The position numbers and the translations under genes were made by a program. A stretch of 64,000 bases of DNA from Blastococcus sp. TBT05-19 (GTDB lineage: Bacteria; Actinomycetota; Actinomycetes; Mycobacteriales; Geodermatophilaceae): contig NZ_QOHI01000003.1 of the NCBI RefSeq assembly GCF_003319095.1, forward strand, positions 310,001-374,000, given 5' to 3'. The notes below the pieces were generated by a model. That model did no database searches and had not been told where the DNA came from. It saw only the letters and a program-made list of their open reading frames with translations. Position 1 is the first letter of the stretch. Each line of letters opens with the position of its first letter. Of this stretch, positions 8,724-54,066 are shown piece after piece.

Positions 8724-9022
8724 GCGTCCTCGTTCTCCTCGCTGGCGCTGGTCGGCCGCCGGGGCGGCGCTCCTGTGCTCGGGCGTGACCTCGCAAGCCA
8801 GGTCACGGGTTCCGTAGCGTAGGGGAGCACTCCGGTGGTCTTCCTGGTGGAGTCCGTTCGGTCCGTCGAACGGGTGCCTCCCCGCAGGTCGCCTCCCCAC
8901 CCCGACCGGGTGGGGAGGCGGTGCTCCCGCCCGGGGAGGCGTGCACGATCTCCGCGCGGGGAACCCGACCGCCGATCTCTCCCGCCGACCGCGGCCGGGA
9001 GTTCTGCCAGAGAGGCCTGACG
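8724..9022. promoter_or_regulatory. Divergent accD / ubiA intergenic region with a strong hairpin
   Basis: This 299-bp non-coding region must hold promoters for both accD (minus) and ubiA (plus). It contains a perfect 12-bp inverted repeat (8891-8902 with 8908-8919, GCCTCCCCACCC) around a 5-nt loop. It could be an operator or part of the ubiA 5' UTR. No further motif is convincing. Confidence 0.5.
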
Positions 9023-18117: not shown

Positions 18118-18121
18118 GTGA
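17981..18121 (+). CDS. Possible 46-residue leader ORF
   Basis: ATG at 17981 follows GGAGGAG by about 10 nt. The frame runs 46 codons (begins MSLGDRRATVDRHRVG, ends VRSSRS) and its TGA overlaps the GTG start of the LicD-methyltransferase gene (GTGA). The composition is basic and uninformative. It may be a translated leader that couples translation into the next gene, or chance. No homologue is recognised. Confidence 0.25.
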   Translation: MSLGDRRATVDRHRVGMPPAADVCRTALGRAAAPPPSSVGVRSSRS

Positions 18122-24855: not shown

Positions 24856-24946
24856 GCTCCCGGCTCCGCGACGGTGCCCCCGCCGGGAGCAGAGCTCGCC
24901 TCGCGCAGCGTGGACACCACCGTCCGGGTCGTCACCGTGGGTGCGG

Positions 24947-25750
24947 TCAGTCGGGACGGCCCAGCTGCCGGACGCCCTCGATCCGCGTGCCGAGGGTAGC
25001 GGTCACCCGCTCCGACGTGGCCCGCGCCGCGAGGGCGTCCGGGTCGGGAGAGCTCACCAGCACGATCGACGCGCCCGCCGCCAGAGGTGCGAGCAGCCAG
25101 GCCACCGGCCCCGCCTCGGCGGCGGTCTCGTCGACGACGAGCACCCGGTCGCCCGGGCCGATGCCGAGGCGGCCGGCCAGCTCGGTCGCCGCCTCCACCA
25201 GCCCGCCGAGCGTCAGCTGCAGCGCGCCCAGGACCAGGCCCGGGCCCGCCGGGTCCGGCTGCTGCCAGGGCGTGAAGACGTCGCCGTACCCCCGCACCTC
25301 CGCCGCGAAGTCCCGCGCCGGCCCCACGTACCCGGTCATGCCCAGGCCCAGCGGGTGCAGCGACAGCCCGAGCAGGTCCGGGACGTCGAGGTCGTCCAGC
25401 TCGGACAGCCGGTCCTGCGCGGCCAGGACCACGTCGGCGCCGTCGAGCCGGCCCTCGTCCTCGGCGGTGGTGTCCAGCACCGCGGCACCGCACCCCCAGA
25501 CCGCCAGCAGGACGGCGGCGGTCTGCCAGTGCACCGGCAGGACGACCGCGACCGTGCTGCCCGGGCCGACGTCGAACTCCTCCTGCAGCAGGTTGCCGCA
25601 CTTGGCCACCCAGTTGGCCGTCGTGGCGCCGGACAGCTCGACGCGGTCGCCGGTGGCGTCGTCGTAGAAGGTGATCAGGGGTGCGGCGGAGTCCCGGCGG
25701 ACGACGGCGTCCAGCAGGGCGGTGGGATGCGTGGGGTCGGTGGGTGTCAC
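24947..25750 (-). CDS. TIGR03089 family protein (AMP-binding-like)
   Basis: This 267-residue protein resembles the N-terminal part of AMP-forming acyl-CoA synthetases (LITFYDDATGDRVELSGATTANWV shown in part, and a GDRVLVV motif). It lacks the ATP-binding P-loop and C-terminal domain, as is usual for TIGR03089 proteins. Their function is unknown; they are typically found next to LCP and rhamnosyltransferase genes in actinobacteria (as Rv3268 is beside Rv3267/Rv3265c). Here the LCP gene is 13 kb away because of inserted glycan genes. Confidence 0.85.
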   Translation of the reverse strand: MTPTDPTHPTALLDAVVRRDSAAPLITFYDDATGDRVELSGATTANWVAKCGNLLQEEFDVGPGSTVAVVLPVHWQTAAVLLAVWGCGAAVLDTTAEDEGRLDGADVVLAAQDRLSELDDLDVPDLLGLSLHPLGLGMTGYVGPARDFAAEVRGYGDVFTPWQQPDPAGPGLVLGALQLTLGGLVEAATELAGRLGIGPGDRVLVVDETAAEAGPVAWLLAPLAAGASIVLVSSPDPDALAARATSERVTATLGTRIEGVRQLGRPD

Positions 25751-25988
25751 GGGGTGAGCGTTGCACCCTCTCCCCGGAAACGGCGCCGCGCGGTGGTTCC
25801 GCGGTTACAGTTTGGCCGAGGGCTCGCAGGAGCTCTCACGGTGTCGAGCGGGTGTGGCGGGCGGCTGGGGTCGCCGTCGCAGGCCGGTGGATCCGTGACG
25901 GGGCGCCGCTTGCGAGGGGTGCCCGGCCGCCGGTCGTGGTGCGCCTGACGGGCGCCCGGCGTTGTCCCACTACGAGAGGTCGCAGGAC

Positions 25989-28313
25989 GTGCTCGACGTG
26001 ACGGTCGATGAGCGGGACGACGTCCCCACGGCGGCCCGTACCGGTGAACCAGCGGTCGGGCGCGAGCAGCGGCCCCGCCGCCTCGGCGACGCCCTGACCG
26101 CGGTCGCTGCCTACATCGGTCTGCAGGGGCTGGTGCTGTTCGCCCTGGGCCGCGTCGCCCCCCGCTTCTTCTACCTCGACGACTCCCTCGGCCAGTTCCT
26201 GCCCATGATGTGGTGGCTGGGACGCAACGCCGAGGGCGGCCGGCCGCCGCTCCTGGACCCCGAGCAGGGCATGGGCGGGAACGTCCTCGCCGACATGCAG
26301 TACGGCGCGCTCGACCCGCTGCACTGGGTGATGCAGGCACTGGCGGCCTCCTCCGACGACTTCGTCGTCATCTCCTTCCTCTTCGGCGCCGTCTCGGTCA
26401 CGTGGTTGGGGCTGGGGGCCCTGGCGGTCCTGCTCACGCACCGCGTACCGGTCGTCCTCGCGGTGGCCGGCGCGATCGGCATGGCGTCCAGCGGCTTCTT
26501 CCTCTGGTACGGCAGTTCGTGGTGGCCGCTGCTGTGGAGCGTCGCCTGGCTGCCGTGGTTCTGGTTCGGGCTCGTGGCCCGCGGCCCGCTGGCCGTTCTC
26601 GTGATCGGGGTCTCCAGCTGGGCGCTGCTGGCCTCCGGCAACCCCTACGTCCTCTTCTTCGTGGTCGTCCTCGTCCTCGGCCACGTCGTCGAGCGCCGCC
26701 GGGCGGCGGGTGGCTGGCGCGGGGTGGTGGACCGCGACCTGGTCCTGCGCGCCGTCGCCGCGGTCGGCGGCGTCGTCGTCGCCCTCCCCACGCTCCTCAC
26801 GACCGTGGAGCTGTCGAGCGTCATGGGCCGGCCCGAGGGCGACCCGGTGATCGGCAACGTCGGTTTCGCCGTCGCCAACTTCGCCGACGTCGTCCTGGGC
26901 GGGGCGACCCTGATGGGCCAGACCAACGCGTGGAGCGGGAACATCGGCCTGGTCCCGGCCCTGGCGACGATGCTCGTCGCGCTGCCCGCGCTCGCCTTCG
27001 TCGACTGGCGCCGGGCGGTGAGCGCCCCCGGTGTGGTCCCCGCCGGGCTGGTCTACCTCACCGCTGTCGTGGCGACCCAGCTGCCCACGACCGTGGCGGT
27101 CTTCCGGTACCCGCTCCGCTACGTCGTCGTGGCCGAGGTGTTCCTGCCGGCCCTGGCGCTCATCGCGCTCGTCGCCGCGCGACGGGTCACCCGGACCAGG
27201 GTGCGGGTCGCGGCGGGCATCGTGCTCGCCCAGTTCCTGCTGGCCTGCTTCCGGGCACCGGTCTTCTACAAGTGGCACATCGTCGCCGGCGTGGTCGCCG
27301 CGGCCGGGCTGGCCGCTCTGGTCGTCCACCTCGCCGGGCCGCGGTTCCGCCGGGAGGCGGGGGTCGTGCTCGCGCTGCTGGTGACCCTCGCTCCGCTGGT
27401 GAGCGTGCAGATGATGGTCTCCGTCCAGGAGCGCGTGGACTCGATCGAGGGCACGGACAGCGGCGGTCAGCCCTTCCGGGCCCTGGCCAACGGGTACTGG
27501 ATGGGCACCCGGGTCGACCAGTACCGGGAGCGGGCGGTCCGGACCGACACGGCGGCCACCGTCATCACCTTCGGCCTGGACCCGGACTGGGGCTGGTCGT
27601 CCGGGGTGCTGGTGGGCAACGCCAACCTGCCGGCCGGCCTGCGGCCGGGCTTCGGCGCTCTCGCCGTGTGGCACGACGGGATCAACGAGCACTGGTGCCG
27701 CACCTACCAGGGCATCACCTGCTCCGAGCCCGACGAGCTGCTCGCCCCGGCGGGGGAGACCGGGGTGTCCTGGCTGGAGCTCCTGTCCTCGGACACGGTG
27801 ATCCTGGACAACGACGCACCCGCGGAGATCCGCGAGCACTTCGACTCGGGCTGGCGGACGGCGGGCACCGGCGAGAACTGGACGGAGTACCAGCGGGACG
27901 ACGTGCTGCCCGGACGCATCACGGCTGCCGCCGACGTCACGGTCTCGATGACCGACTGGACCTCCGACCTCGCGCGGGTCGACCGGCCGATGGACACCTA
28001 CGTGGTCTCCACCGGGGACACCGCGGGCCGGCTCGCGTTCCGCATCCCGCAGTACCCCGGACTCGAGGCCACGCTCGACGGCCGGCCGCTCGAGGTCACC
28101 AGCGTCGACGGCGCGGCCCTGGCGATCGACGTGCCGGCGGACGTCACCGACGGCCGGCTGGAGATCTCCTTCCGCCCGCTCGGCGTCGTCCTGCTGACGC
28201 CCGCGCTGGTCACCGGCCTCCTCCTCATCGTGCTGGCGGGCGGCGCGCACGCGTTCCTGGGGTGGCGCTCCGGGCGCCGGCCCGCCGTCGACCGGGTGGG
28301 TTCCCGGCGGTGA
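25989..28313 (+). CDS. YfhO-like polytopic membrane protein, probable GT-C glycosyltransferase
   Basis: The protein has 774 residues from GTG 25989, which has a GAGAGG site 8 nt upstream; a TTG at 25962 is also in frame. After a first membrane helix it has a loop with D64-D65 (FFYLDDSLGQF) and a WWLG/LLDPEQGMGGN motif, followed by about 10-11 further helices. A C-terminal extracytoplasmic beta domain ends in a segment like YPGLEATLDGRPLEV, as in YfhO proteins, before a final helix. An acidic pair in the first outer loop is the usual catalytic site of GT-C enzymes using polyprenyl-phosphate sugars. It heads a six-gene overlapping operon, and the GtrA gene follows by GTGA overlap. A paralogue is at 35779. 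Substrate unknown. Confidence 0.8.
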   Translation: MLDVTVDERDDVPTAARTGEPAVGREQRPRRLGDALTAVAAYIGLQGLVLFALGRVAPRFFYLDDSLGQFLPMMWWLGRNAEGGRPPLLDPEQGMGGNVLADMQYGALDPLHWVMQALAASSDDFVVISFLFGAVSVTWLGLGALAVLLTHRVPVVLAVAGAIGMASSGFFLWYGSSWWPLLWSVAWLPWFWFGLVARGPLAVLVIGVSSWALLASGNPYVLFFVVVLVLGHVVERRRAAGGWRGVVDRDLVLRAVAAVGGVVVALPTLLTTVELSSVMGRPEGDPVIGNVGFAVANFADVVLGGATLMGQTNAWSGNIGLVPALATMLVALPALAFVDWRRAVSAPGVVPAGLVYLTAVVATQLPTTVAVFRYPLRYVVVAEVFLPALALIALVAARRVTRTRVRVAAGIVLAQFLLACFRAPVFYKWHIVAGVVAAAGLAALVVHLAGPRFRREAGVVLALLVTLAPLVSVQMMVSVQERVDSIEGTDSGGQPFRALANGYWMGTRVDQYRERAVRTDTAATVITFGLDPDWGWSSGVLVGNANLPAGLRPGFGALAVWHDGINEHWCRTYQGITCSEPDELLAPAGETGVSWLELLSSDTVILDNDAPAEIREHFDSGWRTAGTGENWTEYQRDDVLPGRITAAADVTVSMTDWTSDLARVDRPMDTYVVSTGDTAGRLAFRIPQYPGLEATLDGRPLEVTSVDGAALAIDVPADVTDGRLEISFRPLGVVLLTPALVTGLLLIVLAGGAHAFLGWRSGRRPAVDRVGSRR

Positions 28314-28777
28314 CCGGGCGGCATCGGCTGGTCGCCCTCGTGCGGGAGGTGCTCCGGTTCCTGGTGGGCACCTGCCTCGGGCTCACGGTCGACCTCGGCG
28401 TCTTCGAGGCGGCGGTGCGGCTGGGGGCCGCGCCGGGCGTGGCCAACGTGCTCAGCTCCGGCTGCGCCGTCGTGGTGATGTACCTCGTCGTGACGCGCTA
28501 CGTCTTCCGGGCCGACCGCTCGCCGTCCTCGTTCGCGGTCTTCGTCGGCTACTACGCCGTCTCCATCGCCACCTTCTCGATCGTCATCCAGATCCTGCAC
28601 GAGACGACGGGATGGCTGCCCTTCATCTGTAAGTTGGTCTCGTTGCCCCTCTCCTTCGCCGCCAACTTCGTGTTCAGCAAGGTCATCTTCCGGCGTTCGG
28701 GACGGCCGTCGGAGTCGCCGAGCGACCGCCCGCTCGCGGGCCGGGACGTGGTCGAGGCCAGGGAGGCGACGCGATGA
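28310..28777 (+). CDS. gtrA: GtrA family membrane protein (probable polyprenyl-phosphate-sugar flippase)
   Basis: This 155-residue protein has four predicted membrane helices and the GtrA pattern (LRFLVGTCLGLTVDLGVF, FVFSKVIFR near the end). GtrA proteins work with a GT2 that charges polyprenyl phosphate with a sugar and a GT-C that transfers the sugar outside; they are thought to flip the lipid-linked sugar. It overlaps both the YfhO-like gene before it (GTGA) and the HAD gene after it (ATGA), consistent with that team. Confidence 0.88.
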   Translation: MTGRHRLVALVREVLRFLVGTCLGLTVDLGVFEAAVRLGAAPGVANVLSSGCAVVVMYLVVTRYVFRADRSPSSFAVFVGYYAVSIATFSIVIQILHETTGWLPFICKLVSLPLSFAANFVFSKVIFRRSGRPSESPSDRPLAGRDVVEAREATR

Positions 28778-29370
28778 CGACGGTGGGGGAGCGGGGCATG
28801 GCCAGGTACGTGAGCACGGTCCGGGCGTTGCTGTTCGACCTGGACGGCACGCTCGTGGACACCCGGGAGGCCAACTACGAGGCCTACCGCGCCGCCTTCG
28901 CCAGCGCCGGGCACGAGCTGACCCCGGAGCAGTTCGCGACGACCTGGGGCAAGGACTCGCGGGACTTCATCCCCGACCTCCTCCCGGGGATCGACGTCGC
29001 GGCCGTGGACTCCATCCGCGCCGCCAAGAGCACCCTCTACGCGGACCTGCTCGACCGCACGACCGTGAACACCGCGCTCGTCGCGTTCCTGCGGCTCGTG
29101 GGGCCCAGCCACCGGACCGCCCTGGTCAGCACCGCGAAGTCCGGCAACGGGGAGCAGATCCTGGCCGCGCACGGCCTGCGGGAGCTGTTCGACGTCGTGG
29201 TCTGGGGGGACGACGTGGCCGTCAGCAAGCCCGATCCCGAGGGCTACCTGAAGGCGCTCGCCGAGCTCGGCGTGGACGCCGCCGACGGCCTGGCCTTCGA
29301 GGACTCCGAGACCGGTCGTCAGGCGGCCCTGGCGGCCGGGCTGTCCGTCCTCGAGGTGCCGCACTTCTGA
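28774..29370 (+). CDS. HAD superfamily hydrolase
   Basis: This 198-residue protein has the HAD motif I DLDGTLVDT at about 22-30, a helical cap, a motif II Ser in LVSTAK, the motif III Lys in SKPDPEGY and an acidic motif IV in FEDSETG. It resembles beta-phosphoglucomutase/phosphatase-type HADs. In this operon it probably removes or moves a phosphate on a sugar intermediate. It shares one nucleotide with the next start (TGATG). Confidence 0.88.
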   Translation: MTTVGERGMARYVSTVRALLFDLDGTLVDTREANYEAYRAAFASAGHELTPEQFATTWGKDSRDFIPDLLPGIDVAAVDSIRAAKSTLYADLLDRTTVNTALVAFLRLVGPSHRTALVSTAKSGNGEQILAAHGLRELFDVVVWGDDVAVSKPDPEGYLKALAELGVDAADGLAFEDSETGRQAALAAGLSVLEVPHF

Positions 29371-31589
29371 TGGTCCCTCGCTACTCGCGCGGCCGGCTGG
29401 CCCTGATCGTCGTCGCGCTGCTGTCCCTCGCCGGGTTCACCGCCTTCACCTGGCCCTCCCTGAGCGACATGTGGGAGCGGCTGTCCTCCGGGCTGTCCGG
29501 GGCGGGCTGGTTCGCGCTGCTCGCGGCCTCCGCCGTGCAGCTGGTCGGGCACGTCCTCCGTGCGGCCCGCACCAAGGTGCCGATCGACAACGTCCGCCGC
29601 GGAAGCCTGGCCGGCCAGTTCCGGCACCTGTCCATCGGCTACCTCTTCAACGTGGTCTGGCCGCTCCGGATCGGTGAGGTCGTCCGGTCCTACCTGGTGG
29701 CCAAGACGCTGCGGATCAGCTTCCTGTACACGCTGGTGGCCGTCGTGCTCGAGCGGCTGATCGACGTCGTCCTGGTGTCGGTCGCCTTCCTCGTGCTGCT
29801 CGGGGTCGTCGGCAGCGCGGACTTCGGCGTCGTCCCGGTCGCGGCCATGGTGGCGCTGGCCGTCTCGGTGCTGCTCATCGCCTCGTTCGCCGCGCTGGTG
29901 CGGGAGAACACCGTGCTCATGCGGGTGGCCTGGCAGGCGACCAGCTGGCTGAACCACGACCTCGAGAACCGGGCCCGCTTCAAGCTGTGGTCGGTGATCT
30001 TCGGGTTCCAGCGGTTCTTCCGCCAGCGGCGCCAGCTGGCCCGCTACGCCGTCCTCACCCTCACCTCTTGGGCCTGCTACGCGGCGGCCGCGGCGATCGC
30101 CGCGTTCACCGTCTTCCCGGTGCTCGGCGGGCAGGCGGCGCTGGTCGCCGCCGCGGCACCGGCCGGGGTCGTCAGTCCCAGCGTCGGCAACGGCGCCCCG
30201 GGGTCCTACGCCGAGAACGTGCAGGCCTTCTTCGCCAGCAGCACGTCGCTCGACGTCTCCACGGTGGCGCTGTTCGCCGCGGCGTCCTGGGTCGTCGTCA
30301 CCGTCCCGGTGCTCGTCGTGGCGGTCGTCGCGCTCTTCGTCAACTGGGCCCGGCGCACCAGCGCCCCGATCGCCGGCGCCGAGCTCGCGCCGTCCGACGG
30401 CTACGCCAACAAGCTCGGCCGGGAGCAGGACATCTCCGGGTCGATGACCCACTTCCTCGACGCCTACTTCCAGCGCCAGCGGCTCAGCCAGGTGATGCAC
30501 CGGCTCGAGGTCAACGGCAACGTCAGCCTGGTCCGGTTCTTCAAGGGCGGCTCCAACGCCGTCACCCTGCTGGCCACCAGCGGTGACGGCGAGCTGTTCG
30601 TCAAGAAGATGGTCCCCCCGGAGTACGCGCACCGGCTGAAGAACCAGTACGACTGGCTGGCCGAGCGGGCCGACCACGGAGAGCTGGTCACGGTGCTCCG
30701 CGAGCAGCACGCGCCCGACCACTACGCGATCGACCTCGAGTACCGGCCGAGCAGCGTGCCGCTGTTCGAGTACGTGCACGAGAACTCGTTCGCCGAGAGC
30801 GCGGCCAAGCTCAGCGAGGTCTGGGCGTACATGTACGGCCGGGTCTACGACCTGGGGCAGCTCGAGAACCGGCCCGACGTCAGGGACGACTACGTGACCG
30901 AGCGCTTCGTGATGCGCGTGCGCGCGGCCGCCGAGTCGCACCCCGCGCTGGCCGAGGCGCTCAAGGCCGACCGGATCGTGGTCAACGGCCAGGAGCTGGA
31001 CAACTTCGACCGGGTGCTCGCCCGGATCCAGGGCCACGAGATCGCCTGGAACGACCTGGCCACGTTCCGCTCGTCGGCGCAGATCCACGGCGACCTCACC
31101 GTCGACAACATCCTCGTGGACCTGCCCGCCCGGGACGTGCTGATCATCGACCCGTCCGACGACAACCAGCTGCGCGGGCCGGTCATCGACTTCGCGCGGC
31201 ACATGCAGTCGCTGCTCTACGGCTACGAGTTCCTCAACGAGGACGAGGACCCCGTCGTGCTCGGCGAGCAGGACGGCCTGCCCGAGATCACCTACCGGGA
31301 CGCCCGTTCGGCGCGCTACGCGGAGCTGGCCGAGCACGTGAGCACCGAGATCATGCCGCGGCACCTCACGGTCGCCGAGCAGCGCGCGGTGCTCTTCCAC
31401 GTGGGCCTGTTCTACGGCCGCATGCTGACGCACCGGGTCGCGATCAACGGGGGGACGGTGCTCAAGTACTACGGCGTGTGCATCCAGGCCCTCAACGGTT
31501 TCCTCGACCAGTACGACCCGCCCGCCCAGGACGAGGACCGCACGGCCGTCGGTGGGCCGGCGCGGCGCCAGGAGATACTGAGCCGGTGA
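29370..31589 (+). CDS. Flippase-like membrane domain fused to an APH-type kinase domain
   Basis: The protein has 739 residues. Residues of about 1-345 form a multi-helix membrane domain of the lysylphosphatidylglycerol-synthase/UPF0104 flippase-like type (LRIGEVVRSYLVAKTL is characteristic). Residues of about 370-725 are a soluble phosphotransferase of the aminoglycoside/choline-kinase fold. They carry HGDLTVDN at 573-580 (catalytic Asp575, metal-binding Asn580) and a DFG-like IIDP with Asp594. The fold is used to phosphorylate sugars, choline and antibiotics. The union of a lipid-flippase domain with a small-molecule kinase is unusual. It is coupled at both ends to neighbouring operon genes. 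The substrate could be a sugar or polyprenol. Confidence 0.82.
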   Translation: MVPRYSRGRLALIVVALLSLAGFTAFTWPSLSDMWERLSSGLSGAGWFALLAASAVQLVGHVLRAARTKVPIDNVRRGSLAGQFRHLSIGYLFNVVWPLRIGEVVRSYLVAKTLRISFLYTLVAVVLERLIDVVLVSVAFLVLLGVVGSADFGVVPVAAMVALAVSVLLIASFAALVRENTVLMRVAWQATSWLNHDLENRARFKLWSVIFGFQRFFRQRRQLARYAVLTLTSWACYAAAAAIAAFTVFPVLGGQAALVAAAAPAGVVSPSVGNGAPGSYAENVQAFFASSTSLDVSTVALFAAASWVVVTVPVLVVAVVALFVNWARRTSAPIAGAELAPSDGYANKLGREQDISGSMTHFLDAYFQRQRLSQVMHRLEVNGNVSLVRFFKGGSNAVTLLATSGDGELFVKKMVPPEYAHRLKNQYDWLAERADHGELVTVLREQHAPDHYAIDLEYRPSSVPLFEYVHENSFAESAAKLSEVWAYMYGRVYDLGQLENRPDVRDDYVTERFVMRVRAAAESHPALAEALKADRIVVNGQELDNFDRVLARIQGHEIAWNDLATFRSSAQIHGDLTVDNILVDLPARDVLIIDPSDDNQLRGPVIDFARHMQSLLYGYEFLNEDEDPVVLGEQDGLPEITYRDARSARYAELAEHVSTEIMPRHLTVAEQRAVLFHVGLFYGRMLTHRVAINGGTVLKYYGVCIQALNGFLDQYDPPAQDEDRTAVGGPARRQEILSR

Positions 31590-32356
31590 ACACCGTGATC
31601 GCCATCCCGGCCTACAACTGCGCGCCGCAGATCGGCCGGGTGCTCGACGAGATCACCCCGGAGCTGGCCGCCCGCGTCGCCGAGATCTGGGTCATCGACA
31701 ACCGCAGCACCGACGACACGCTCGAGCGGGCGCTCGAGCACAAGCGCACCGGGCGGCTGCCGAACCTGCGGGTGTTACGCACCCGGCAGAACAACAGCCT
31801 GGGGGGCACGCACAAGGTCGCCTTCGAGCACGCCCGCGCCGCGGGGCACACCCACGTGGTGATCCTGCACGGCGACAACCAGGCCGCGAGCGCCGAGGTG
31901 GGCCTGCTCCTGGACCACGCAGCGGCGCACCCCGACACGCAGACGGTCCTGGGGTCGAGGTTCAGCCGCAGGTCGCGCCTGCACGGCTACGACGCCAAGC
32001 GGGTCTGGGGCAACCGGGTGCTCAACACCGTCTACAGCGCGGTGGCCCTGCGCCCCCTGCAGGACCTCGGCTCGGGGCTCAACCTCTTCGCCCTGCGCGA
32101 CCTCGACCCGGCCACCTACCTGCGCTTCGCCGACAAGCTGACGTTCAACTACGAGCTCATCCTCGACCTCGTGGCGCGCAAGGTCCGGTTCGCCTTCGTG
32201 CCGATCACCTGGCGCGAGGAGGACCAGGTGTCCAACGCGCGCAACTGGAACATCTTCCGGACGGCGCTGGTCAACCTGGCCCGGTGGCGGGTGGGCCGGC
32301 GCACGTCCGAGGCACCGGCCGAGCCGCGCGACTACGAGTGGGACGAGGTGCAGTGA
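31586..32356 (+). CDS. Family 2 glycosyltransferase (polyprenyl-phosphate sugar synthase-like)
   Basis: This 256-residue GT-A enzyme begins NTVIAIPAYNCAPQIGRVLDE and has WVIDNRSTDDT and HGDNQA (DxN/DxD-like) motifs and LQDLGSGLNLF, similar to dolichyl/polyprenyl-phosphate mannose synthase-like proteins. It lacks C-terminal membrane helices. It probably charges a polyprenyl phosphate with a sugar for the GtrA/YfhO pair. The GTG start overlaps the previous stop and its own stop overlaps the next ATG. Confidence 0.87.
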   Translation: MNTVIAIPAYNCAPQIGRVLDEITPELAARVAEIWVIDNRSTDDTLERALEHKRTGRLPNLRVLRTRQNNSLGGTHKVAFEHARAAGHTHVVILHGDNQAASAEVGLLLDHAAAHPDTQTVLGSRFSRRSRLHGYDAKRVWGNRVLNTVYSAVALRPLQDLGSGLNLFALRDLDPATYLRFADKLTFNYELILDLVARKVRFAFVPITWREEDQVSNARNWNIFRTALVNLARWRVGRRTSEAPAEPRDYEWDEVQ

Positions 32357-33096
32357 TGACCACCCTGCAGGTGCTCATGCCGATGGGCGGGCTCGGCACC
32401 CGGTTCCGCAAGGTCGGCATCACCACGCCCAAGCCGCTCATCGAGGTCGACGGTGGCCCGATGTTCCAGCGCGCGCTCCGCTCGTTCGCCCCCTGGGCCG
32501 GCGACAAGACGGTCACGGTCGTCGTCCGCGCGGACGACGACGCCGAGCACGGCCTGACGCCGCAGGTGCTCGCCGCCGAGCCCGAGGCGCGGATCGTGCA
32601 GCTCCAGCGCGACACCCGCGGCGCCGTCGAGACCTGCCTGGAGGCCCGGGACCGGCTCGACCCGGACCAGCCGCTGGTGATCATGGACTGCGACATCGCG
32701 TTCGACAGCCCCGGCTACTTCGCGGCGCTGGAGAAGGCGGTCGAGCAGGGCGACCTGGACGGGCTCCTGCTGTCCTTCCGCTCCACCGAGCCCCGGTACA
32801 GCTTCGCCGAGGTGGGCGCGGACGGCCTCGTGGTCCGGACCGCCGAGAAGCAGGCCATCTCCTCGGACGCGCTCATGGGCGTCTACTCGTTCACCTCCGC
32901 CCGGGTGTTCCTGGAGGCGGCGGACCTGCTGATGGCCAAGCAGATCGACGCCGCCATGCCGGAGTACTACGTGTCGCTGATCTTCAACGAGCTGATCGCC
33001 TCCGGCCGCCGCGTCGGCCTGGTGCGCGGCGACTTCTACTGCTTCGGGACGCCGGAGGAGCTGGCCGCCTACCAGGCCACGGGCCGCCCCGTCTGA
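32356..33096 (+). CDS. Sugar-phosphate nucleotidyltransferase-like protein
   Basis: This 246-residue protein has the NTP-transferase start LQVLMPMGGLGTRFRKVG and TPKPLIEVDGGPM, and the metal site MDCDIAF at about 112-118. It has no C-terminal acetyltransferase helix. With the kinase domain upstream it could form a kinase-nucleotidyltransferase pair making an NDP-sugar or NDP-alcohol for the GT2. It is the last gene of the operon; a hairpin terminator follows. Confidence 0.87.
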   Translation: MTTLQVLMPMGGLGTRFRKVGITTPKPLIEVDGGPMFQRALRSFAPWAGDKTVTVVVRADDDAEHGLTPQVLAAEPEARIVQLQRDTRGAVETCLEARDRLDPDQPLVIMDCDIAFDSPGYFAALEKAVEQGDLDGLLLSFRSTEPRYSFAEVGADGLVVRTAEKQAISSDALMGVYSFTSARVFLEAADLLMAKQIDAAMPEYYVSLIFNELIASGRRVGLVRGDFYCFGTPEELAAYQATGRPV

Positions 33097-33103
33097 TCGC
33101 GTA

Positions 33104-33131
33104 CGGCCGGCTCCCCGAGGGGAGCCGGCCG
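33104..33131. terminator. Bidirectional hairpin terminator
   Basis: A perfect 13-bp inverted repeat (CGGCCGGCTCCCC, 33104-33116 with 33119-33131) lies between the end of the six-gene operon and the convergent acyltransferase gene. Confidence 0.85.
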
Positions 33132-33150
33132 CACCGGTGGGACGGCAGCG

Positions 33151-35367
33151 CTACAGCTGCCGGTCCAGGAACTGCCCGAGGGTCCGCGAGAACGTGCTCG
33201 TGACGTGGCTCCCGTCGGAGTAGACGATCACGCCGCCGATGAGCGTGTGGCAGGTCTGCGCGTCGCAGAAGGCGTCGGTCAGGTCGAGGACCGAGACCCG
33301 CTCGTCGCCCATGGCGAGGGCGGCGTCGGCGAGGTGGTCGGGAGCCACGCGCACCGCACGAGGACCGGCGCAGGGGTCATCGGCTCCGACGGCGTTCGCG
33401 ACGCAGTCGGGGACGTTGAACTCGAGGGTCTTCAGCTCGCCCAGGTGCACACCGCCGGTCGTGGGCACGGCGCGGACCACGTGCACCTGCTTGCCGGCCT
33501 CGGCCAGCATCCGCAGAGGCGCCTGGGCGGCCTCGACGGGGATGCCGTCGAGCAGCGTCCCGTCGTCCTCCGCCCACTTGTAGATGTCGTTGCGGTAGCT
33601 GGTGAACACGCGGGTGATCGACTCGTCCTGGGCGATCTGCTCGAGTGCGTTCTGCGACCAGCCGCCGCACGCGGTGGCCTCGTCCAGCGGCATGCCGGGC
33701 CCGAGCATGCGATCGGTGCCGAGCGCCGGGCAGCCGAACTTGAAGTAGGTGACCACCGCCCAGTCGCGGTCCTCGGCCACCTCCTGGAAAGCCTCGTAGA
33801 GGCTCGCGGTGTGCGAGTCGCCGATGAGCGCGACCGTCTCCGTGGGGGTCGAACTGCCGAAGCGACACGTCCTGGGAGTCGTATCGGTGCCGCCCTGCGC
33901 GCACTGCAGGCCGTCCGAGGCATCGGACTTGGCGAAGATCGGGTTGGCTGCATCGCCCTGGTTGGCGAAGGGATCGGCGCAGTCGCGCCCCGGGAGCATC
34001 GCGCCGGCCCCGAAGCAGGGGTCCGAGCTGCTCGCGGCCGCCTGCGCGGCCACCTCGGCCTGCGCGACGGAGTTCCCCACGTGCAGCCAGCCGGCCGCGG
34101 CGACGGCGACGACGGCAGCCGTGGCGACCGCCGTGGCCAGGAAGGTGGTGCCCGTCCCGCGCCGGGCCAGGAAGGTGCCGGTGCGCACCGGGTCCTCGAC
34201 CCAGATCTTGGTGAGGTAGCCGGCGACCAGCGTCGCCACGACGATGCCCGCCTTCGACGTCGTCCCGAGCGGGTGGCCCAGCGCGAACGGCAGGATCACG
34301 ACCAGCGGCCAGTGCCACAGGTAGGCGGAGTAGGAGATGTCGCCGAGGAAGCGGACCGGGCCGAAGTCGGCGAGCTTCGTCGGGCTCCAGTCGCCCTGCG
34401 GCGCGCCGGCCCAGATGACCGCCACGGTGCCGAGCACGGGGAGCAGGGCCGCCGTCCCCGGGAAGGGGGTCTCGGCGGTGTACGCGAACGCGGCGTAGGC
34501 GATCGCGCCGAAACCGGCCCACGAGACGACCGTGCGGAGCCGGTGCCGGCCCGCCGGGGGAGTGGCCGCCCACACCGCGAGCAGGCCACCGAGCCCGAAC
34601 TCCCAGGCGCGCGCGGGAGTGGTGAAGTAGGCGTCCGGCGGGGAGGTCTGGGTGGTCCAGAGGGAGTAGGCGAACGAGCCCGCGGTCAGCACGCCGAACA
34701 CCGCCGCGATCGCCGCGCGCCGGTGGACCCGCAGCCGGCTCGCGAGCCAGACCGAGCCGACGACCAGCAGCGGCCAGAGCAGGTAGAACTGCTCCTCCGT
34801 GGCCAGCGACCAGTAGTGCTGCGCGGGCGAGGCGACGTTGTGCGCGGCCAGGTAGTCGACCGCGTCCCAGGCCAGCACCCAGTTCTCCAGGTAGATCGCC
34901 GAGGCGCCGATCTCCCGCAGCCAGCCCTGCCAGTACGTCTGCGGGACCCAGAGCACCGTCGCGGCGGCCGAGGCGAGCAGGACGAGCAGCGATGCGGGGA
35001 GGAGCCGCCGGGCCCGGCGGGCCCAGAACCTCGCCAGCTGGATGCGCTGCGTCCGCTCCACCTCCCGCAGGAGGTGGCCGGAGATGAGGAAGCCCGAGAC
35101 GACGAAGAAGACGTCGACGCCGACGTAGCCGCCGGGCATCCGCAGCGGCACCACGTGGTAGATCACGACCAGGGAGACGGCGAGGGCGCGCAGCGCCTGG
35201 ATCTCGACCCGGACGCCCGACGTCGCCTCGGCGCGCGGCGCGGGGCGCGCAGGCCGGGCGGGAGCCCGGCCGACGTCGACAGCGGGGATCCGGGCCGTCA
35301 GGTCGTCCGCCGGCGGCATCTGCACGCCGGTGCCTCGCTCGATGGTCGTCTCCCGGTGAACCGGCAC
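33151..35367 (-). CDS. OafA-type acyltransferase with C-terminal SGNH domain
   Basis: The protein has 738 residues. After a disordered N-terminus, an acyltransferase-3 domain of about 10 membrane helices begins EIQALRALAVSLVVIYH, with GYVGVDVFFVVSGFLI and an EEQFYLLWPLL motif. The C-terminal third is an extracytoplasmic SGNH domain with GDSHTASLY (catalytic Ser) and a SDGSHVT block (Asp/His). Such two-domain proteins move acetyl groups across the membrane onto surface polysaccharides or peptidoglycan. GTG at 35367 has a GAGGG site. It converges on the six-gene operon and is divergent from the second YfhO-like gene. Confidence 0.93.
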   Translation of the reverse strand: MPVHRETTIERGTGVQMPPADDLTARIPAVDVGRAPARPARPAPRAEATSGVRVEIQALRALAVSLVVIYHVVPLRMPGGYVGVDVFFVVSGFLISGHLLREVERTQRIQLARFWARRARRLLPASLLVLLASAAATVLWVPQTYWQGWLREIGASAIYLENWVLAWDAVDYLAAHNVASPAQHYWSLATEEQFYLLWPLLVVGSVWLASRLRVHRRAAIAAVFGVLTAGSFAYSLWTTQTSPPDAYFTTPARAWEFGLGGLLAVWAATPPAGRHRLRTVVSWAGFGAIAYAAFAYTAETPFPGTAALLPVLGTVAVIWAGAPQGDWSPTKLADFGPVRFLGDISYSAYLWHWPLVVILPFALGHPLGTTSKAGIVVATLVAGYLTKIWVEDPVRTGTFLARRGTGTTFLATAVATAAVVAVAAAGWLHVGNSVAQAEVAAQAAASSSDPCFGAGAMLPGRDCADPFANQGDAANPIFAKSDASDGLQCAQGGTDTTPRTCRFGSSTPTETVALIGDSHTASLYEAFQEVAEDRDWAVVTYFKFGCPALGTDRMLGPGMPLDEATACGGWSQNALEQIAQDESITRVFTSYRNDIYKWAEDDGTLLDGIPVEAAQAPLRMLAEAGKQVHVVRAVPTTGGVHLGELKTLEFNVPDCVANAVGADDPCAGPRAVRVAPDHLADAALAMGDERVSVLDLTDAFCDAQTCHTLIGGVIVYSDGSHVTSTFSRTLGQFLDRQL

Positions 35368-35778
35368 GCTGCCCTCATCTCACGTCCGTGGGGGCCCCAC
35401 GGCCCAACTGCTCGTCGATCGGTGCGCGGCGTCCGCCGGCGCCGACGCTCCCGTGCCAGGAGTCGTCCGGACCGCCCGCTCGCCGCGGCGGAACAGGTGG
35501 CGCTCGGCGCGGCCGCCCGAAGCGGCACGACCCGACCTTCTGTTCACTCGAACTGTAACGAAACGGAGACGAAAAAGTACCGATCGTGACGAGAGGCCAG
35601 ACACTCGGAGGAGGTCCTGCACCGTCCGTCCCACGCGACACGGTGCGGGGCGCCTCCTCGCGGCGCCTGGCTATCGTCGTCCGCAGCAGCCGCGTCGCCC
35701 GGGCCCGTACCGGGGACAGCGTCCACGCCTCGCGCCGTCGTCCGGCTCCCGTGCGCGTGCGCCCCGAACGGAGTCCTC
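35368..35778. promoter_or_regulatory. Divergent promoter region with an AT-rich patch
   Basis: This 411-bp region lies between the minus-strand OafA gene and the plus-strand YfhO-like gene. A conspicuous AT-rich patch at about 35535-35590 (for example ACTGTAACGAAACGGAGACG) contrasts with the surrounding GC-rich sequence and probably holds promoters. No gene is supported here. Confidence 0.45.
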
Positions 35779-38136
35779 ATGAGCCTGTCCCGGCCGATCA
35801 CCGAGCCGCCGACCGACGATGCGCGCGGCATCGGGGCGGCGGGCCGGGTGCCGACGACGGTCCCGGACCCGGACGGCGGGAGGACGGGAACCGGTCGGCG
35901 GCCGGGGCTGTGGGCCTTCCCGCTCTACCTGGCCGTGCAGCTGTGCCTGCTGGCCGTGCTGCGCGCCGTGGCGCCGCGCTTCTTCTGGTTCGACGACGCC
36001 CAGATCCAGTTCATGCCCATGTACTGGTGGCTCGGCCGGCAGCTGGGCGACGGCTCCCTGCCGTTGCTGGACCCGGACCAGGGCATGGCCGGGAACCTGA
36101 CCGCGGACATGCAGAACGGGACGCTGGACGTCCTCCGCTGGCCGTTCATGGTGTGGGCCGGGGACCAGCAGGACCTGGTCCTCGTGTCCACCGTCCACGG
36201 CTGGCTGTGCCTCCTCGTCCTGGGGGCGGCTGCCCTCGCGCTCCTGCTGAACCACCACGTGCGGCCCGCGCTGGCGGTCGCGACCGCGATCGGGGTCACG
36301 ACCGGCGGGTTCCTCCTCTGGTACGGACCGGCCTGGACGCCGTCGATGTGGAGCCTCGCCGCGCTCGTCTGGCTGTGGGCCGCACTCAGCTCGCGACGCT
36401 GGTACGGCGTCCTCGGGGTGGGGCTCGCCTTCGCCGCGGCGGTGGGCGCCGGGAACCCCTACATCTGGCCGCTGCTCCCGGTCCTGGTCGCCTGCCAGGC
36501 CTACGAGCGCTGGCGCGTCGGCGGGCGTGCGGTCCTCCGGGAGCGCCGGACGTGGGCGACCGTCGTCGCGCTGCTGGCGGGGACGGTGCTCAGCGCACCC
36601 ACGCTGGTGAACGCCCTCGACGTCGCGCCGTGGATGTGGCGCCTGCCGCCCGCGGCGACGATCGGCGCCGCGGGCACCGGCACCAACCTGCTGGACATCC
36701 TGGTCGGCGGCACGACCCTGCTGAACGCCTCGAGCCTCCCCATCTTCAGCACCACGGTCATCGCCCTGCCCCTGGTGGCGCTGGTCGACTGGCGGCGGGC
36801 CGTGCGCGGTCCCGGCGTGGTGACGGCCGCCTGCCTGTGGATCGCCGCGGTGCTGTGGACCCAGCTCCCCGACTACTTCCTGGTCTTCCGCATCCCCTTC
36901 CGCCTGCTCTCGGTCGTCCAGGTCGCCTTCGGGCTGCTCGTCGTCCTCGCCCTCACCGCGGCTACGACGCTCACCCGGCGCCGGGTCGCCGTCGCCGCGG
37001 GGCTCGTCGGTCTGCAGTTCGTCGTCGCGATGATGCGGTCCCCGGTCCTCTGGCGCTGGCACGTCATCGCCCTGCTGCTCGCGCTGGCGGGTCTCGCGGC
37101 CGTCGTCCTCCTCCTGCGCTCCGGCGCTCCGGCTCTCCGGCCCGCCTCCCGGCGCTGGGTGCGCCCGGCAGCGGCCGCGACGGTGCTCGCGGTGTGCGCG
37201 TCGGCGCTGCCCCTGCAGCTCGGGCTGCAGTCGACCGTCCAGGAGCGGTACGAGCTGATCGTCCTGGACGAGGACCAGGAGGGCGTCCCGATCTACCGGC
37301 CCCAGTCGGGTGGCAACGACGTCGGGACGACCGTGGAGGAGTTCCGGCAGAACTCCTTCGCGACCGACACCTCCCTCACCGTCTACGCCTTCCGGGCCTT
37401 CGACGACTTCGACGACCGGGGCTGGGACCAGGGGGTGCTGGGCGGGAACCTCAACCTGCTGGCCGGCTTCCGGCCCGGGTACGGGTCCCTGGCGGTCTGG
37501 CCCGAGGGCGTCCAGCGGTACGTCCGAGCCGACTACCAGAGCTCGCTGGACCCGAAGCAGCGGGCCTGGTTCCGGGTCCCGGAGGGGGCGGACGTCCCCT
37601 GGCTGGACATCCTGTCGTCGAACCGCGTGCTGCTCGGCGTCGAGGGTGCGGTGCCCCTGTCGATCGGCACCTACTTCGCGAAGAACTGGGACCAGGGGGA
37701 GACCCGCGACGGCTGGACGGAGTACGTGCGTCGCGAGCCGCTGCCCGGCCGGGTCGGTCTGGCCCCGACCGGAGGTGTCTCCGTGGAGGACGCGGCACCG
37801 AACGACGGCGTGGCCACGCTCGGCGAGCCGCTGGAGAGCTACACCGTGTCGACCGGTGACGACGAGGGGCGCCTGGTCTTCCGGACGCCCTACTGGAACG
37901 GCTTCCGGGCGACCCTGGACGGCCGGCCCGTGGAGGTGTCGGCCTTCGCCGACGCGGTGCTGCAGGTGGAGCTCCCCGCCGGCGTGGACTCCGGCCGGCT
38001 CGAGATCTTCTTCGAGCCGATCGGCGCGCGGGTGCTCCCGTGGTGCACCGGGCTCGGCGCGCTCCTCCTCGTGGTGGCGGTGGGTACGGGCCTGCGCCGC
38101 GAGCGCCGGGCCGGGGCGGACCTCCCCGCACGCTGA
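35779..38136 (+). CDS. YfhO-like polytopic membrane protein (paralogue of 25989)
   Basis: This 785-residue protein has the same plan as the protein at 25989. The first outer loop carries D72-D73 (FFWFDDAQIQF), then MYWWLGR and LLDPDQGMAGN, many membrane helices, an extracytoplasmic beta domain ending in a WNGFRATLDGRPVEV segment, and a last helix. It is probably a second GT-C glycosyltransferase that uses a lipid-linked sugar. ATG 35779 is the natural start. Unlike its paralogue it is not followed by gtrA, so it may share the flippase at 28310 or take another donor. Confidence 0.78.
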   Translation: MSLSRPITEPPTDDARGIGAAGRVPTTVPDPDGGRTGTGRRPGLWAFPLYLAVQLCLLAVLRAVAPRFFWFDDAQIQFMPMYWWLGRQLGDGSLPLLDPDQGMAGNLTADMQNGTLDVLRWPFMVWAGDQQDLVLVSTVHGWLCLLVLGAAALALLLNHHVRPALAVATAIGVTTGGFLLWYGPAWTPSMWSLAALVWLWAALSSRRWYGVLGVGLAFAAAVGAGNPYIWPLLPVLVACQAYERWRVGGRAVLRERRTWATVVALLAGTVLSAPTLVNALDVAPWMWRLPPAATIGAAGTGTNLLDILVGGTTLLNASSLPIFSTTVIALPLVALVDWRRAVRGPGVVTAACLWIAAVLWTQLPDYFLVFRIPFRLLSVVQVAFGLLVVLALTAATTLTRRRVAVAAGLVGLQFVVAMMRSPVLWRWHVIALLLALAGLAAVVLLLRSGAPALRPASRRWVRPAAAATVLAVCASALPLQLGLQSTVQERYELIVLDEDQEGVPIYRPQSGGNDVGTTVEEFRQNSFATDTSLTVYAFRAFDDFDDRGWDQGVLGGNLNLLAGFRPGYGSLAVWPEGVQRYVRADYQSSLDPKQRAWFRVPEGADVPWLDILSSNRVLLGVEGAVPLSIGTYFAKNWDQGETRDGWTEYVRREPLPGRVGLAPTGGVSVEDAAPNDGVATLGEPLESYTVSTGDDEGRLVFRTPYWNGFRATLDGRPVEVSAFADAVLQVELPAGVDSGRLEIFFEPIGARVLPWCTGLGALLLVVAVGTGLRRERRAGADLPAR

Positions 38137-38189
38137 CGTCCGTCCCCCGGGGGCCCGGGCGCCGTCCGGCCCTCTGGGACACTGTGCCG

Positions 38190-38867
38190 GTGTTCCGCAC
38201 CGCGTCCCGTCCTCGTCCCCTCGGCCGCGGAGCGGTCCTCGTCGCTGCCGTCGGCACCCTCCTCGCGGGGTGCTCCAGCGGCGGTGACCAGGGCCCGGAT
38301 CCCGCGCCACCGGCGGCCGGGGCGGGGGCCGACGTCCGGCTCGCGGTGATCGGCGACTCCATCACCCAGGCGGACGGCGACGTCCCGCGCGGGAGGATCG
38401 GGCCGACGTCCTGGCTGCACACCGCCACCGGTCAGGGGACGCGCCTCGCCGGGGGCTGGGCCCGCGCCGGCGCGACGACCGAGGACATGGTGGCCGCCGC
38501 GACCCCGGTCGACGCGGACGTCCTGGTGGTCCTCGCCGGCACCAACGACCCGCGCTCCGGGATCTCCGGCGAGGCGACCGCCGACAACATCCGTGCCGTC
38601 GTGGACCGCGTGGGCGTCGAGCAGGTGGTGATCTCGGCGGTACCTCCGCGGGACGCCGCACCGGAGATCGCGGTGGCGACCAACGAGGTGCTCGCCGAGC
38701 TGGCCGACGACGAGGGGTGGGAGTTCGTCGACGCGATGGAGGACGTGCGCGTGGACGACCGCTACGCCCCGGGCATGACCGACGACGGCATCCACCCGAC
38801 CGCCCGCGCCGCAGCGCTCATCGGCGAGGCGCTGGGCGAGGCGGTCGTGGCGGCAGCAGGGGACTGA
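38190..38867 (+). CDS. SGNH/GDSL hydrolase lipoprotein
   Basis: The protein has 225 residues. It has a lipoprotein signal ending LLAGC, a short Gly/Pro/Ala linker, then an SGNH esterase domain: VIGDSIT (catalytic Ser), GTND (block III) and DGIHPT (Asp/His). It probably removes acyl groups from an envelope glycan or lipid, and may balance the OafA-type enzyme nearby. GTG at 38190 is preferred; GTG at 38184 is possible. The stop lies in a hairpin shared with the LCP gene. Confidence 0.85.
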   Translation: MFRTASRPRPLGRGAVLVAAVGTLLAGCSSGGDQGPDPAPPAAGAGADVRLAVIGDSITQADGDVPRGRIGPTSWLHTATGQGTRLAGGWARAGATTEDMVAAATPVDADVLVVLAGTNDPRSGISGEATADNIRAVVDRVGVEQVVISAVPPRDAAPEIAVATNEVLAELADDEGWEFVDAMEDVRVDDRYAPGMTDDGIHPTARAAALIGEALGEAVVAAAGD

Positions 38868-38885
38868 CCGGCAGCGCCGGTCAGT
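38863..38885. terminator. Hairpin containing both convergent stop codons
   Basis: A 10-bp perfect stem (ACTGACCGGC, 38863-38872 with 38876-38885) with a 3-nt loop contains the TGA of the GDSL gene (38865-38867) and the TGA of the LCP gene (38881-38883 on the plus strand). Confidence 0.75.
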
Positions 38886-40422
38886 TGATGCAGGTGGTGT
38901 CGGCCGCGGTGCGGGCGTCCGCGCCCGGGGTCTCCTCCGCCGGCGCGGCCGGGGTGACGGCCTGGCCGACCCCGTTGAAGTCGCTGCCGAGGATCACCTG
39001 CACGGTGCCGCTCGAGGGGTCCTGGCTCTCCTTCAGCACGGCGCCGGGGATGGCGGCGGCCACGGTGTTGGCCAGGTCCTCGTCGCCGGCGACGTAGCGG
39101 ATCTCGGTCTGCGCGAAGTCCATCGAGGCGGCGTTGCCCGTGGAGCCGACCGGGAAGCCCGCGGCGGAGAGGGCGGCGGACGCCTTGGCGGCCAGGCCCG
39201 AGGTGCCCGAGCCGTTGAAGATGTCGACCGGGACCTGCGCGGGGGCGACGGTCGCCGGGGCCTCGGTGGTCGCGGGCGCCGCAGGCTCGGGCGTCGCGGA
39301 GAGGTCGGCGAAGAAGTCGTGCAGCGTGTCCTCGTCCTCGAGCCGGATGATCGACCGGTTCTGCGCGTCCCGGTCGGTGCCGACGTAGGGGATCGTCTGG
39401 AACTCGATGCTGCCCGCGGTCACCGACTGCATCTGCTCGGCGAGCTGGAGCAGGTCGAGGTTCTTGTCCACGGTGAGCGACTCGGCAGCGGCCTGCACCA
39501 GCTCGCGCTGCTTGCCGAGGTCGAGCAGCACCTCGTCGGACAGCATCTTGCGGAGCACGCCGGCGATGAAGACCTGCTGCCGGATGATCCGGTCGAAGTC
39601 GCCGCGGGGCAGCTCGTGGCGCTGGCGCACGAACTTCAGCGCCTCGGCGCCGCTGATCGTCTGCGGCCCGGCGGCGAACACCGCGCCGGAGTAGAAGGAG
39701 TCGTCGACGGCCTGGCAGAGGTTGACCTCGACCCCGCCCACGACCGAGCTCAGGTTGAAGAAGCCGAGCAGGTCGACCTCGGCGTAGTGGTCGATCTTCA
39801 GCCCGGTGAGCTGGCTGATCGTGCGGACCAGCAGCTGGGCGCCGGAGGCCTGCTTGGCGTTCTCCGCGGCCTCCTCGTCGACCTCGGCGTAGCCGTAGGC
39901 GTAGGCGGCGTTGAGCTTGTCCTTGCCGTAGCCGGGGATGTCGACGTAGGAGTCGCGCGGGAAGGAGACGAACGAGGCCCGGGACCCGTCGGCGGGCACG
40001 TGCACCAGGATCATCGTGTCGGTGTTGACGCCCGAGTCGGTTCCGGCGTTGAGCTGCGCCAGCTGCTCCTCGGACAGCGAGCTGCGGCTGTCGTTGCCGA
40101 CCAGCAGCAGGTTCATCGCCGCGCCGGCGTTCCCGGAGCCCTCGTTGCCGTCGGTCGGGATCGCATCGGTGCGGTTGACGGTCGCCGAGGCGACCTGTCC
40201 GAGGTACCAGCCCCACCCGGAACCCGCGAGCAGGGCCGCCGACAGGAGACCGGCCACCACCCGGGCGGTGACCGCGGCGCGACCGCCACGACGGCCGGGG
40301 GTGCGCGGCTCGCCGGCGTCGCCACCGGTGCGCGAGCGCGGCGGCAGGCCGGCTCGCGGGTCGAGGCGCGCGGGCAGCGAGCGGCCGGCGGGGCCGTCCT
40401 GCTGGTGGCGGTCTCGGCTCAC
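38881..40422 (-). CDS. LCP-family (LytR-CpsA-Psr) glycopolymer transferase
   Basis: The protein has 513 residues. It has a cytoplasmic basic N-terminus, one membrane helix (VVAGLLSAALLAGSGWGWYLG), and an LCP domain with LLLVGNDSR, VSFPRDSYVDIPG and RQRHELPRGDFDRIIRQQ (in part). A LytR_C domain of about 90 residues ends the protein, after a Pro/Ala/Thr linker. LCP enzymes attach lipid-linked polymers such as arabinogalactan to peptidoglycan. GTG at 40422 has a GAGGAA site; GTG at 40440 is also in frame. In M. tuberculosis the corresponding gene (Rv3267) lies near wbbL and manB, as here within 15 kb. Confidence 0.95.
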   Translation of the reverse strand: MSRDRHQQDGPAGRSLPARLDPRAGLPPRSRTGGDAGEPRTPGRRGGRAAVTARVVAGLLSAALLAGSGWGWYLGQVASATVNRTDAIPTDGNEGSGNAGAAMNLLLVGNDSRSSLSEEQLAQLNAGTDSGVNTDTMILVHVPADGSRASFVSFPRDSYVDIPGYGKDKLNAAYAYGYAEVDEEAAENAKQASGAQLLVRTISQLTGLKIDHYAEVDLLGFFNLSSVVGGVEVNLCQAVDDSFYSGAVFAAGPQTISGAEALKFVRQRHELPRGDFDRIIRQQVFIAGVLRKMLSDEVLLDLGKQRELVQAAAESLTVDKNLDLLQLAEQMQSVTAGSIEFQTIPYVGTDRDAQNRSIIRLEDEDTLHDFFADLSATPEPAAPATTEAPATVAPAQVPVDIFNGSGTSGLAAKASAALSAAGFPVGSTGNAASMDFAQTEIRYVAGDEDLANTVAAAIPGAVLKESQDPSSGTVQVILGSDFNGVGQAVTPAAPAEETPGADARTAADTTCIN

Positions 40423-40824
40423 GGTGAATTCCTCACTCACGGGGGATCGGCCCCGCGACGGGGGCGTCGGCGCGGCCTCGGGGCCGATCGGCGCTGACCG
40501 GCTCGGCGCCGTCGACGGGCGCCCGGAACGGGCGGACGACGGGCTTCAGACGGGTTCGATCGTAGCCAGGACGGGGCGGGACGGACCGGTTCCGACACCC
40601 ACCCCGGGAACCCGGCAGACCGTCTGGTCCCCGGCGTGCGCACGCGTCCCACCCGTCACACCGGTCACCGCCGCGGGTGCGACCGTGGACCGCGACAGCC
40701 TGCCCGGGACCGCGTCGACTTCTCGGGGTGTCGACTCAAGTCGCCCCGTTCCCTGACGATGTTCCCAGGTGGACGCCTGCGCCCCGATCGGGCGCGGACC
40801 ACCGCACCACCGGAGGACAATTTC
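40423..40824. promoter_or_regulatory. Divergent LCP / amidase intergenic region
   Basis: This 402-bp region is without a supported gene and must carry both promoters. It ends with CGGAGGACAATTTC, where GGAGG is the ribosome site for the amidase gene. No other motif stands out. Confidence 0.4.
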
Positions 40825-44247: not shown

Positions 44248-44312
44248 CCCCCCGGGGACCGATCGTCCCGCGCGTCAGCGACGCGCCCGCACCACCAGAG
44301 AGGCACCTCCCC

Positions 44313-54020: not shown

Positions 54021-54066
54021 CGGTTGCTCTCCCTGGGATGCCGGCCGGGGGTGGTCGTCGTCCGCA

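Follow-up and report, generated by a model that had tools for sequence, protein, structure and literature searches.

The window, that is the whole stretch of 64,000 nucleotides analysed here (Blastococcus sp. TBT05-19, contig NZ_QOHI01000003.1, positions 310,001 to 374,000), contains at positions 25989-33096 an operon of six genes, which probably encodes a multi-component transmembrane glycosylation cassette making its own sugar donor. The genes code, in order, for a GT-C membrane glycosyltransferase, a small membrane protein of the GtrA family, a HAD hydrolase, a fusion between a flippase-like membrane domain and an APH-fold kinase, a GT2 glycosyltransferase and a sugar-1-phosphate nucleotidyltransferase-like protein (NTPt). 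An earlier reading of the DNA letters (the sequence-only reading) had described a fully overlapping operon: re-reading of the open reading frames (ORFs) upheld all six and their coordinates, and each of the five junctions does overlap, through GTGA, ATGA, TGATG, GTGA and TGATG, respectively. Pfam matches exceeding the gathering scores were obtained for GtrA (PF04138), HAD (PF13419/PF00702), both parts of the fusion (PF03706 and PF01636), GT2 (PF00535) and NTPt (PF00483/PF12804), although PF01636 does so barely (24.8 vs 23.2 bits). A promoter and terminator scan returned neither element, and the repeat scan listed 20 families of direct and 25 of inverted repeats, which resembled GC-rich chance matches.

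Fifteen other loci of Geodermatophilaceae were compared (L013-L025, L062 and L063), and 13 of them carry all six genes in the same order. In L021 less than 0.6 kb precedes GtrA up to the contig end, and a GT-C match is absent from that stretch; L022, from Trujillonella, holds five genes. Possible start codons overlapping the previous stop, which were counted in the sequence and do not represent start use, occur in these loci at all the HAD/fusion, fusion/GT2 and GT2/NTPt junctions (15/15 each) and at the GT-C/GtrA junction (13/13), but at only 8 of 14 GtrA/HAD junctions; in L015, the GtrA frame is open for 147 codons when read from the GT-C stop. Chance adjacency of the six genes was rejected because of this conserved order and of the overlaps in relatives. 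Co-location elsewhere, set beforehand as a test of the operon, was found also outside the family, with five of the six genes in L034, from another class; the alphaproteobacterial plasmid L043 has five of the six gene classes along with an unassigned membrane protein. Not every part of the set is obligatory: GT-C was not found at E<=1e-30 in G041, the genome of L022, and two distant copies show no GtrA nearby, one of them no HAD either.

The fusion was detected in 12 of 146 relatives, own genome included, and the identical 12 carry a close NTPt (E<=2.3e-153); a weak NTPt match is present in two of the 134 fusion-negative relatives (G024 and G056). GT-C was found in 10 of 11 fusion-positive Geodermatophilaceae, versus 2 of 20 fusion-negative ones. 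The closest named copy belongs to Blastococcus saxobsidens 67B17, where the fusion is 95% identical, and a matching contig is present in G018, from the same genus as the window. In broader genome samples the operon is rare: among 345 genomes of the class, four have the kinase (own genome, G322 with E 1.2e-49 and two weak matches); NTPt occurs in 3 of 346 genomes of the phylum (own genome, G634 and, weakly, G706), and the fusion in 1 of 24 genomes of the class of G634 and 1 of 201 of the order of G322, these single matches being G634 and G322 themselves.

In the proposed pathway, HAD would remove phosphate from a sugar phosphate, or move it, the membrane-tethered kinase would phosphorylate the sugar, most likely at C1, and NTPt would make a nucleoside diphosphate (NDP) sugar. 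GT2 would load the sugar onto polyprenyl phosphate, the LPG_synthase_TM domain of the fusion, GtrA or both would carry the lipid-linked sugar outside, and GT-C would attach it to a glycan of the wall, a galactan/arabinan-type polymer being the most likely one. The sugar is probably simple, as Pfam finds no dehydratase, epimerase or aminotransferase among the six proteins. The donor-to-decoration pathway put forward by the sequence-only reading is backed by the GT-C fold and by the kinase, HAD and NTPt motifs; its sugar, nucleotide, anomeric kinase, flippase and polymer are proposals. AmgK is a kinase of the APH type. Together, HAD, kinase and NTPt could yield an NDP-sugar along the lines of MupP-AmgK-MurU, the N-acetylmuramic acid salvage system of Pseudomonas, where a HAD phosphatase, a kinase and a nucleotidyltransferase make such a donor, as outlined in PMC5371407. 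The operon differs in that family-level matches to that system were not found, in the linkage to lipid loading and export genes and in the fusion of the kinase to a membrane domain. Donor synthesis and extracytoplasmic glycosylation would be linked in one portable unit, so that the substrate of every step could be tested within a defined set of genes.

The GT-C transferase (25989-28313, plus strand, 774 amino acids) has many transmembrane helices, a C-terminal beta domain, a last transmembrane segment and the first-loop motif FF[WY].DD[SA]..QF.PM; transmembrane counts are, here and below, simple hydropathy estimates. It shows the GT-C fold of the membrane transferases of multi-component glycosylation systems, which it has in common with enzymes whose donors are polyprenyl-linked sugars. 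The window protein has no Pfam match at E<=0.1 and does not reach the YfhO gathering score (PF09586, 28.5 bits). At the same E-value, YfhO is matched by 15 of the 17 members of the GT-C alignment, which includes relatives and a paralogue at 35779-38136 (best 7.9e-8); the paralogue scores 18.3 bits, also below the gathering score. Kinship with the YfhO family is likely on these alignments, and the label YfhO-like, already given to the protein, is right, although the signal is weak.

Three types can be told apart among the GT-C proteins; identity is 51-59% between types, 70-86% within type A, 76-78% within type B and 59-83% within type C, which is loose. Over 12 loci, the mean pairwise identity is 59.3% for GT-C, 79.5% for the fusion, 83.4% for HAD, 85.3% for NTPt and 88.4% for GT2; that of GtrA is 66.5% over 11 loci, L015 being left out. 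In trees of 13 rows, the fusion places L014 with L017/L018 (100/98), whereas GT-C places it with L023/L024 (100/100). The conflict was evaluated by approximately unbiased (AU) tests on 12 rows, on groups picked after identities and trees had been seen. GT-C data reject the fusion groupings {L014,L017,L018} (delta lnL 256, p-AU 6e-46) and {L019,L023} (p 3e-6), while type B, which is {L014,L023,L024} by GT-C, is rejected by the fusion data (delta lnL 145, p-AU 4e-7), as is type C (p 9e-4) but not type A (p 0.18). GT-C rows are absent for L021 and L022, and trees and identity matrices do not include L062 and L063.

The donor genes do not share the history of GT-C, whose types have been exchanged separately from them; this would be expected if acceptor or linkage varies around a constant donor. 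In the Gtr systems of O-antigen conversion (GtrA-GtrB-Gtr(type)), a constant lipid-donor part is likewise combined with an exchanged GT-C, and the operon GT2 weakly matches the GtrB-like phrog_841 (1.6e-6); unlike them, the operon includes donor synthesis, and phage genes were not noted among the window genes searched. YfhO of B. subtilis is reported to be specific for sugar and acceptor (PMC7389260, in outline), so that an exchanged GT-C would alter the acceptor or the linkage. The separate histories suggest a serotype-like variation of the wall glycan in these actinobacteria.

The GT2 protein (31586-32356, plus strand, 256 amino acids; PF00535 3.1e-14) is a candidate polyprenyl-phosphate sugar synthase, without predicted transmembrane segments; it matches AglJ (6.5e-13) and PpgS (4.7e-6), both far under cut-off. 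The motifs HGDxQ and WRExDQVSN are found in 14/14 aligned rows and NRSTD in 11/14, the WRExDQVSN pattern not being found in the G634 copy. NTPt (32356-33096, plus strand, 246 amino acids) matches PF12804 (2.8e-10) and PF00483 (1.4e-8) and, by profile search, the PDB entry 4evw (1.5e-19), which is far closer than MurU (8hhd, E 0.00099 over residues 7-46 only). All motif patterns tried for NTPt, the fusion and HAD hold in 14/14 rows; for NTPt they are PKPL and DCDI.

An unlikely alternative to the self-supplied donor is that GT2 uses a housekeeping NDP-sugar, while HAD, kinase and NTPt make a separate activated group, such as an NDP-polyol or a phosphorylated sugar, for the same polymer. A GT2 of this kind, GtlA of Listeria, uses UDP-galactose (PMC8035078, in outline). 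Moreover, in seven other plasmid or phage stretches with NTPt relatives, HAD is annotated in six (5/5 plasmid, 1/2 phage) and GtrA, YfhO or APH kinase in none, by annotation only, hypothetical proteins having mostly stayed outside the searches. GT2 and NTPt are, however, the most conserved proteins of the operon, adjoin with overlapping stop and start in all 15 loci and adjoin again in plasmid L043, which speaks against this alternative.

The fusion (29370-31589, plus strand) is composed of an LPG_synthase_TM flippase-like domain (residues ~1-340; PF03706 9.8e-16) and of the kinase domain (~341-739; 30390-31586). The assignment of the latter to the APH fold is based on PF01636 and on the catalytic motif HxDxxxxN, in the form HGDxxxxN, present in 14/14 rows and in three distant copies, as the AlphaFold2 model of the fusion has a pLDDT of 44.7; IDP is also present in 14/14 rows. 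The membrane domain gave no match at E<=0.1 in a PDB profile search. AmgK was not among the NCBIfam matches of 10 kinase domains, in a library that may hold no AmgK model. A plain drug-resistance enzyme was rejected, given only weak Mph/APH similarity and the constant linkage to glycan genes. It is less probable still that the kinase acts on a lipid or a lipid-linked sugar, for carrier regeneration or for adding phosphate to the decoration, which would account for its fusion to a lipid-flippase-like domain. The fusion is indeed kept in two phyla, and an analogous kinase in G024 is also joined to a membrane domain; but NTPt would be left without a dedicated source of sugar 1-phosphate, and the usual substrates of APH-fold enzymes are soluble hydroxyl compounds.

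HAD (28774-29370, plus strand, 198 amino acids; PF13419 2.1e-26) belongs to the HAD-IA beta-phosphoglucomutase (beta-PGM)/sugar-phosphatase group and carries DLDGT in 14/14 rows; it does not qualify as MupP (NF009696, 30.7 bits vs 359). Its best NCBIfam match is PGMB-YQAB (TIGR02009, 107 bits), followed by bPGM (74.9 bits), and many of its 28 PDB matches are named beta-PGM, as would suit a mutase making sugar 1-phosphate directly from a sugar 6-phosphate supplied by the kinase. This reading is quite improbable: neither score reaches its curated cut-off (153 and 189), the best PDB match, 3kbb (4.7e-20, profile search), is a phosphorylated-carbohydrate phosphatase, and in L033 kinase and NTPt are retained although no HAD could be detected in 16 kb.

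GtrA (28310-28777, plus strand, 155 amino acids, 4 predicted transmembrane segments; PF04138 45.7 bits vs cut-off 26.1) corresponds to the small membrane protein of multi-component systems, is present in 15/15 other Geodermatophilaceae loci and is a candidate flippase or membrane partner of GT2. As GtrA was not found near two distant copies, the more constant of the two export candidates is the fused domain, and GtrA may serve the GT2, which lacks transmembrane segments. For Rv3789, PMC7389260 outlines conflicting views, GtrA-type proteins either flipping the lipid-linked sugar or only anchoring partners; a flippase-like domain adjoining GtrA bears on this question.

CsbB-GtcA-YfhO and other multi-component systems are outlined for Bacillus, Listeria and Staphylococcus (PMC8035078, PMC7389260, PMC5836110). 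The operon shares with CsbB-GtcA-YfhO the GT2, GtrA and GT-C classes, the polyprenyl-phosphate-sugar logic and a poorly conserved GT-C. It differs by the addition of HAD, NTPt and a kinase fused to a flippase-like domain, by a GT2 without predicted transmembrane segments, by a GT-C below the Pfam YfhO cut-off and by a galactan/arabinan instead of a teichoic-acid neighbourhood; the parallel with teichoic acid decoration drawn earlier holds for the way of working, but not for the polymer to which the neighbourhood points. The mycobacterial decaprenyl-phosphoryl-arabinose pathway (UbiA, DprE1, DprE2, Rv3789) and pentofuranose three-component systems, as outlined in PMC11127046, also combine a lipid-linked sugar with a GT-C; the mycobacterial pathway has a GtrA-type protein, like the operon, and UbiA and DprE genes share the operon's window. 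Loading in the operon would instead follow GT2 and NDP-sugar logic, and no match to a UbiA-type phosphoribosyltransferase was found by Pfam among the six proteins. Such an operon or fusion is not described in titles or abstract starts among the literature matches listed, a weak absence, as most subscription literature lay outside the search.

Among the distant copies, L034 (G634) has HAD, fusion, GT2 and NTPt on the same strand, while its GT-C lies on the other and converges on them; these proteins are 49-68% identical to those of the window, and GtrA was not found within 18 kb. L033 (G322) has a fusion (30%), an NTPt (38%), a 666 amino acid protein with 7 predicted transmembrane segments and no Pfam match, and a different GT2-like ORF, judged by eye and unmatched by the GT2 profile; neither HAD nor GtrA was detected within 16 kb. 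L043 is plasmid pPB17_3 of Pseudochrobactrum algeriensis (NZ_CP075350.1), where GtrA (profile E 3.7e-11), GT2 (41%), NTPt (34%), fusion (24%) and HAD (39%) are contiguous, as in the operon but in another order, next to a divergent 532 amino acid membrane protein with 8 predicted transmembrane segments, unmatched by the GT-C profile. This cluster is common to three plasmid records, and we know of no characterisation of it. NTPt has more distant relatives in 34 plasmid records (Pseudochrobactrum included) and 19 phage records. The phages (L067, L068 and 17 further records) are Synechococcus phages in 18 of 19 cases, and in L067 the NTPt relative is close to HAD hydrolase and glycosyltransferase genes.

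G024, a member of the family without the fusion, has on one strand (L064, 5044-16080) a double NTPt, GtrA, GT2, a membrane-kinase fusion, HAD and two YfhO-like GT-Cs. The fusion protein (697 amino acids) joins a GT-C-like membrane domain, with weak, sub-threshold ALG3/GT87/PMT_2 matches, to a phosphoribulokinase/uridine-kinase domain (PF00485 8.8e-28), and the HAD is unmatched by the operon HAD profile. In this one genome the functional classes of the operon are thus found again, with a non-homologous kinase that is likewise joined to a membrane domain, which makes the set an independent analogue of the operon. In G056 (L065, 7684-10821), near the region beside AMP-binding and LCP genes, a class II aldolase-like ORF, recognised by eye, accompanies an NTPt relative and GtrA. 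Tentatively, the operon could represent a donor-channelled class of transmembrane glycosylation, where covalent tethering of an anomeric sugar kinase to a lipid flippase couples sugar activation with lipid loading and export at the membrane. Such a design would have arisen more than once (APH on LPG_synthase_TM, phosphoribulokinase on a GT-C-like domain), the cassette spreading between actinobacterial classes and to Pseudomonadota, and the terminal GT-C being swapped to change the surface glycan.

The operon is located in a variable slot (24947-40440), bordered on the left by an AMP-binding protein (24947-25750, minus strand), found in 24/24 relatives searched, and on the right by a LytR_CpsA_Psr (LCP) protein (38881-40440, minus strand; PF03816 7.6e-42). 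In 14 of the 20 operon-negative genomes (L048-L061, the L050 stretch stopping at a contig end), flank matches are at most 80 bp apart in 6 and separated by 2-6 kb in 8. Slot contents include a DprE1-like protein in five, three of which also have a DprE2-like one (by eye, from ORF starts), UbiA in L057 (Pfam) and an OafA-like protein in L056 (tblastn). The window has its UbiA and DprE genes at 8921-12121; UbiA, DprE1, DprE2 and Glf, with several glycosyltransferases, at 8921-12121 and 52398-56340, are wall genes of galactan/arabinan type. Because LCP, Glf, glycosyltransferases, UbiA, DprE1 and DprE2 surround the operon, a galactan/arabinan-type wall polymer is, from neighbourhood alone, the most likely acceptor.

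Passengers of the slot, outside the conserved six, are an AT3-SGNH (OafA-like) acyltransferase (33151-35367, minus strand; PF01757 and PF19040) and the second YfhO-like GT-C (35779-38136, plus strand), 40% identical to the first. When the window (24944-41592) is compared with L013, the proteins from HAD to LCP are 93-97% identical, GT-C and GtrA 82-83% and the AMP-binding gene 73%, a pattern which suggests a recent exchange of part of the operon region between these two Blastococcus. Two large ORFs at 40636-47824 match the same stretches in relatives, the second (44495-47824) having 13 LGFP repeat matches, and a single ORF at 18118-19689 combines LicD-like and methyltransferase domains.

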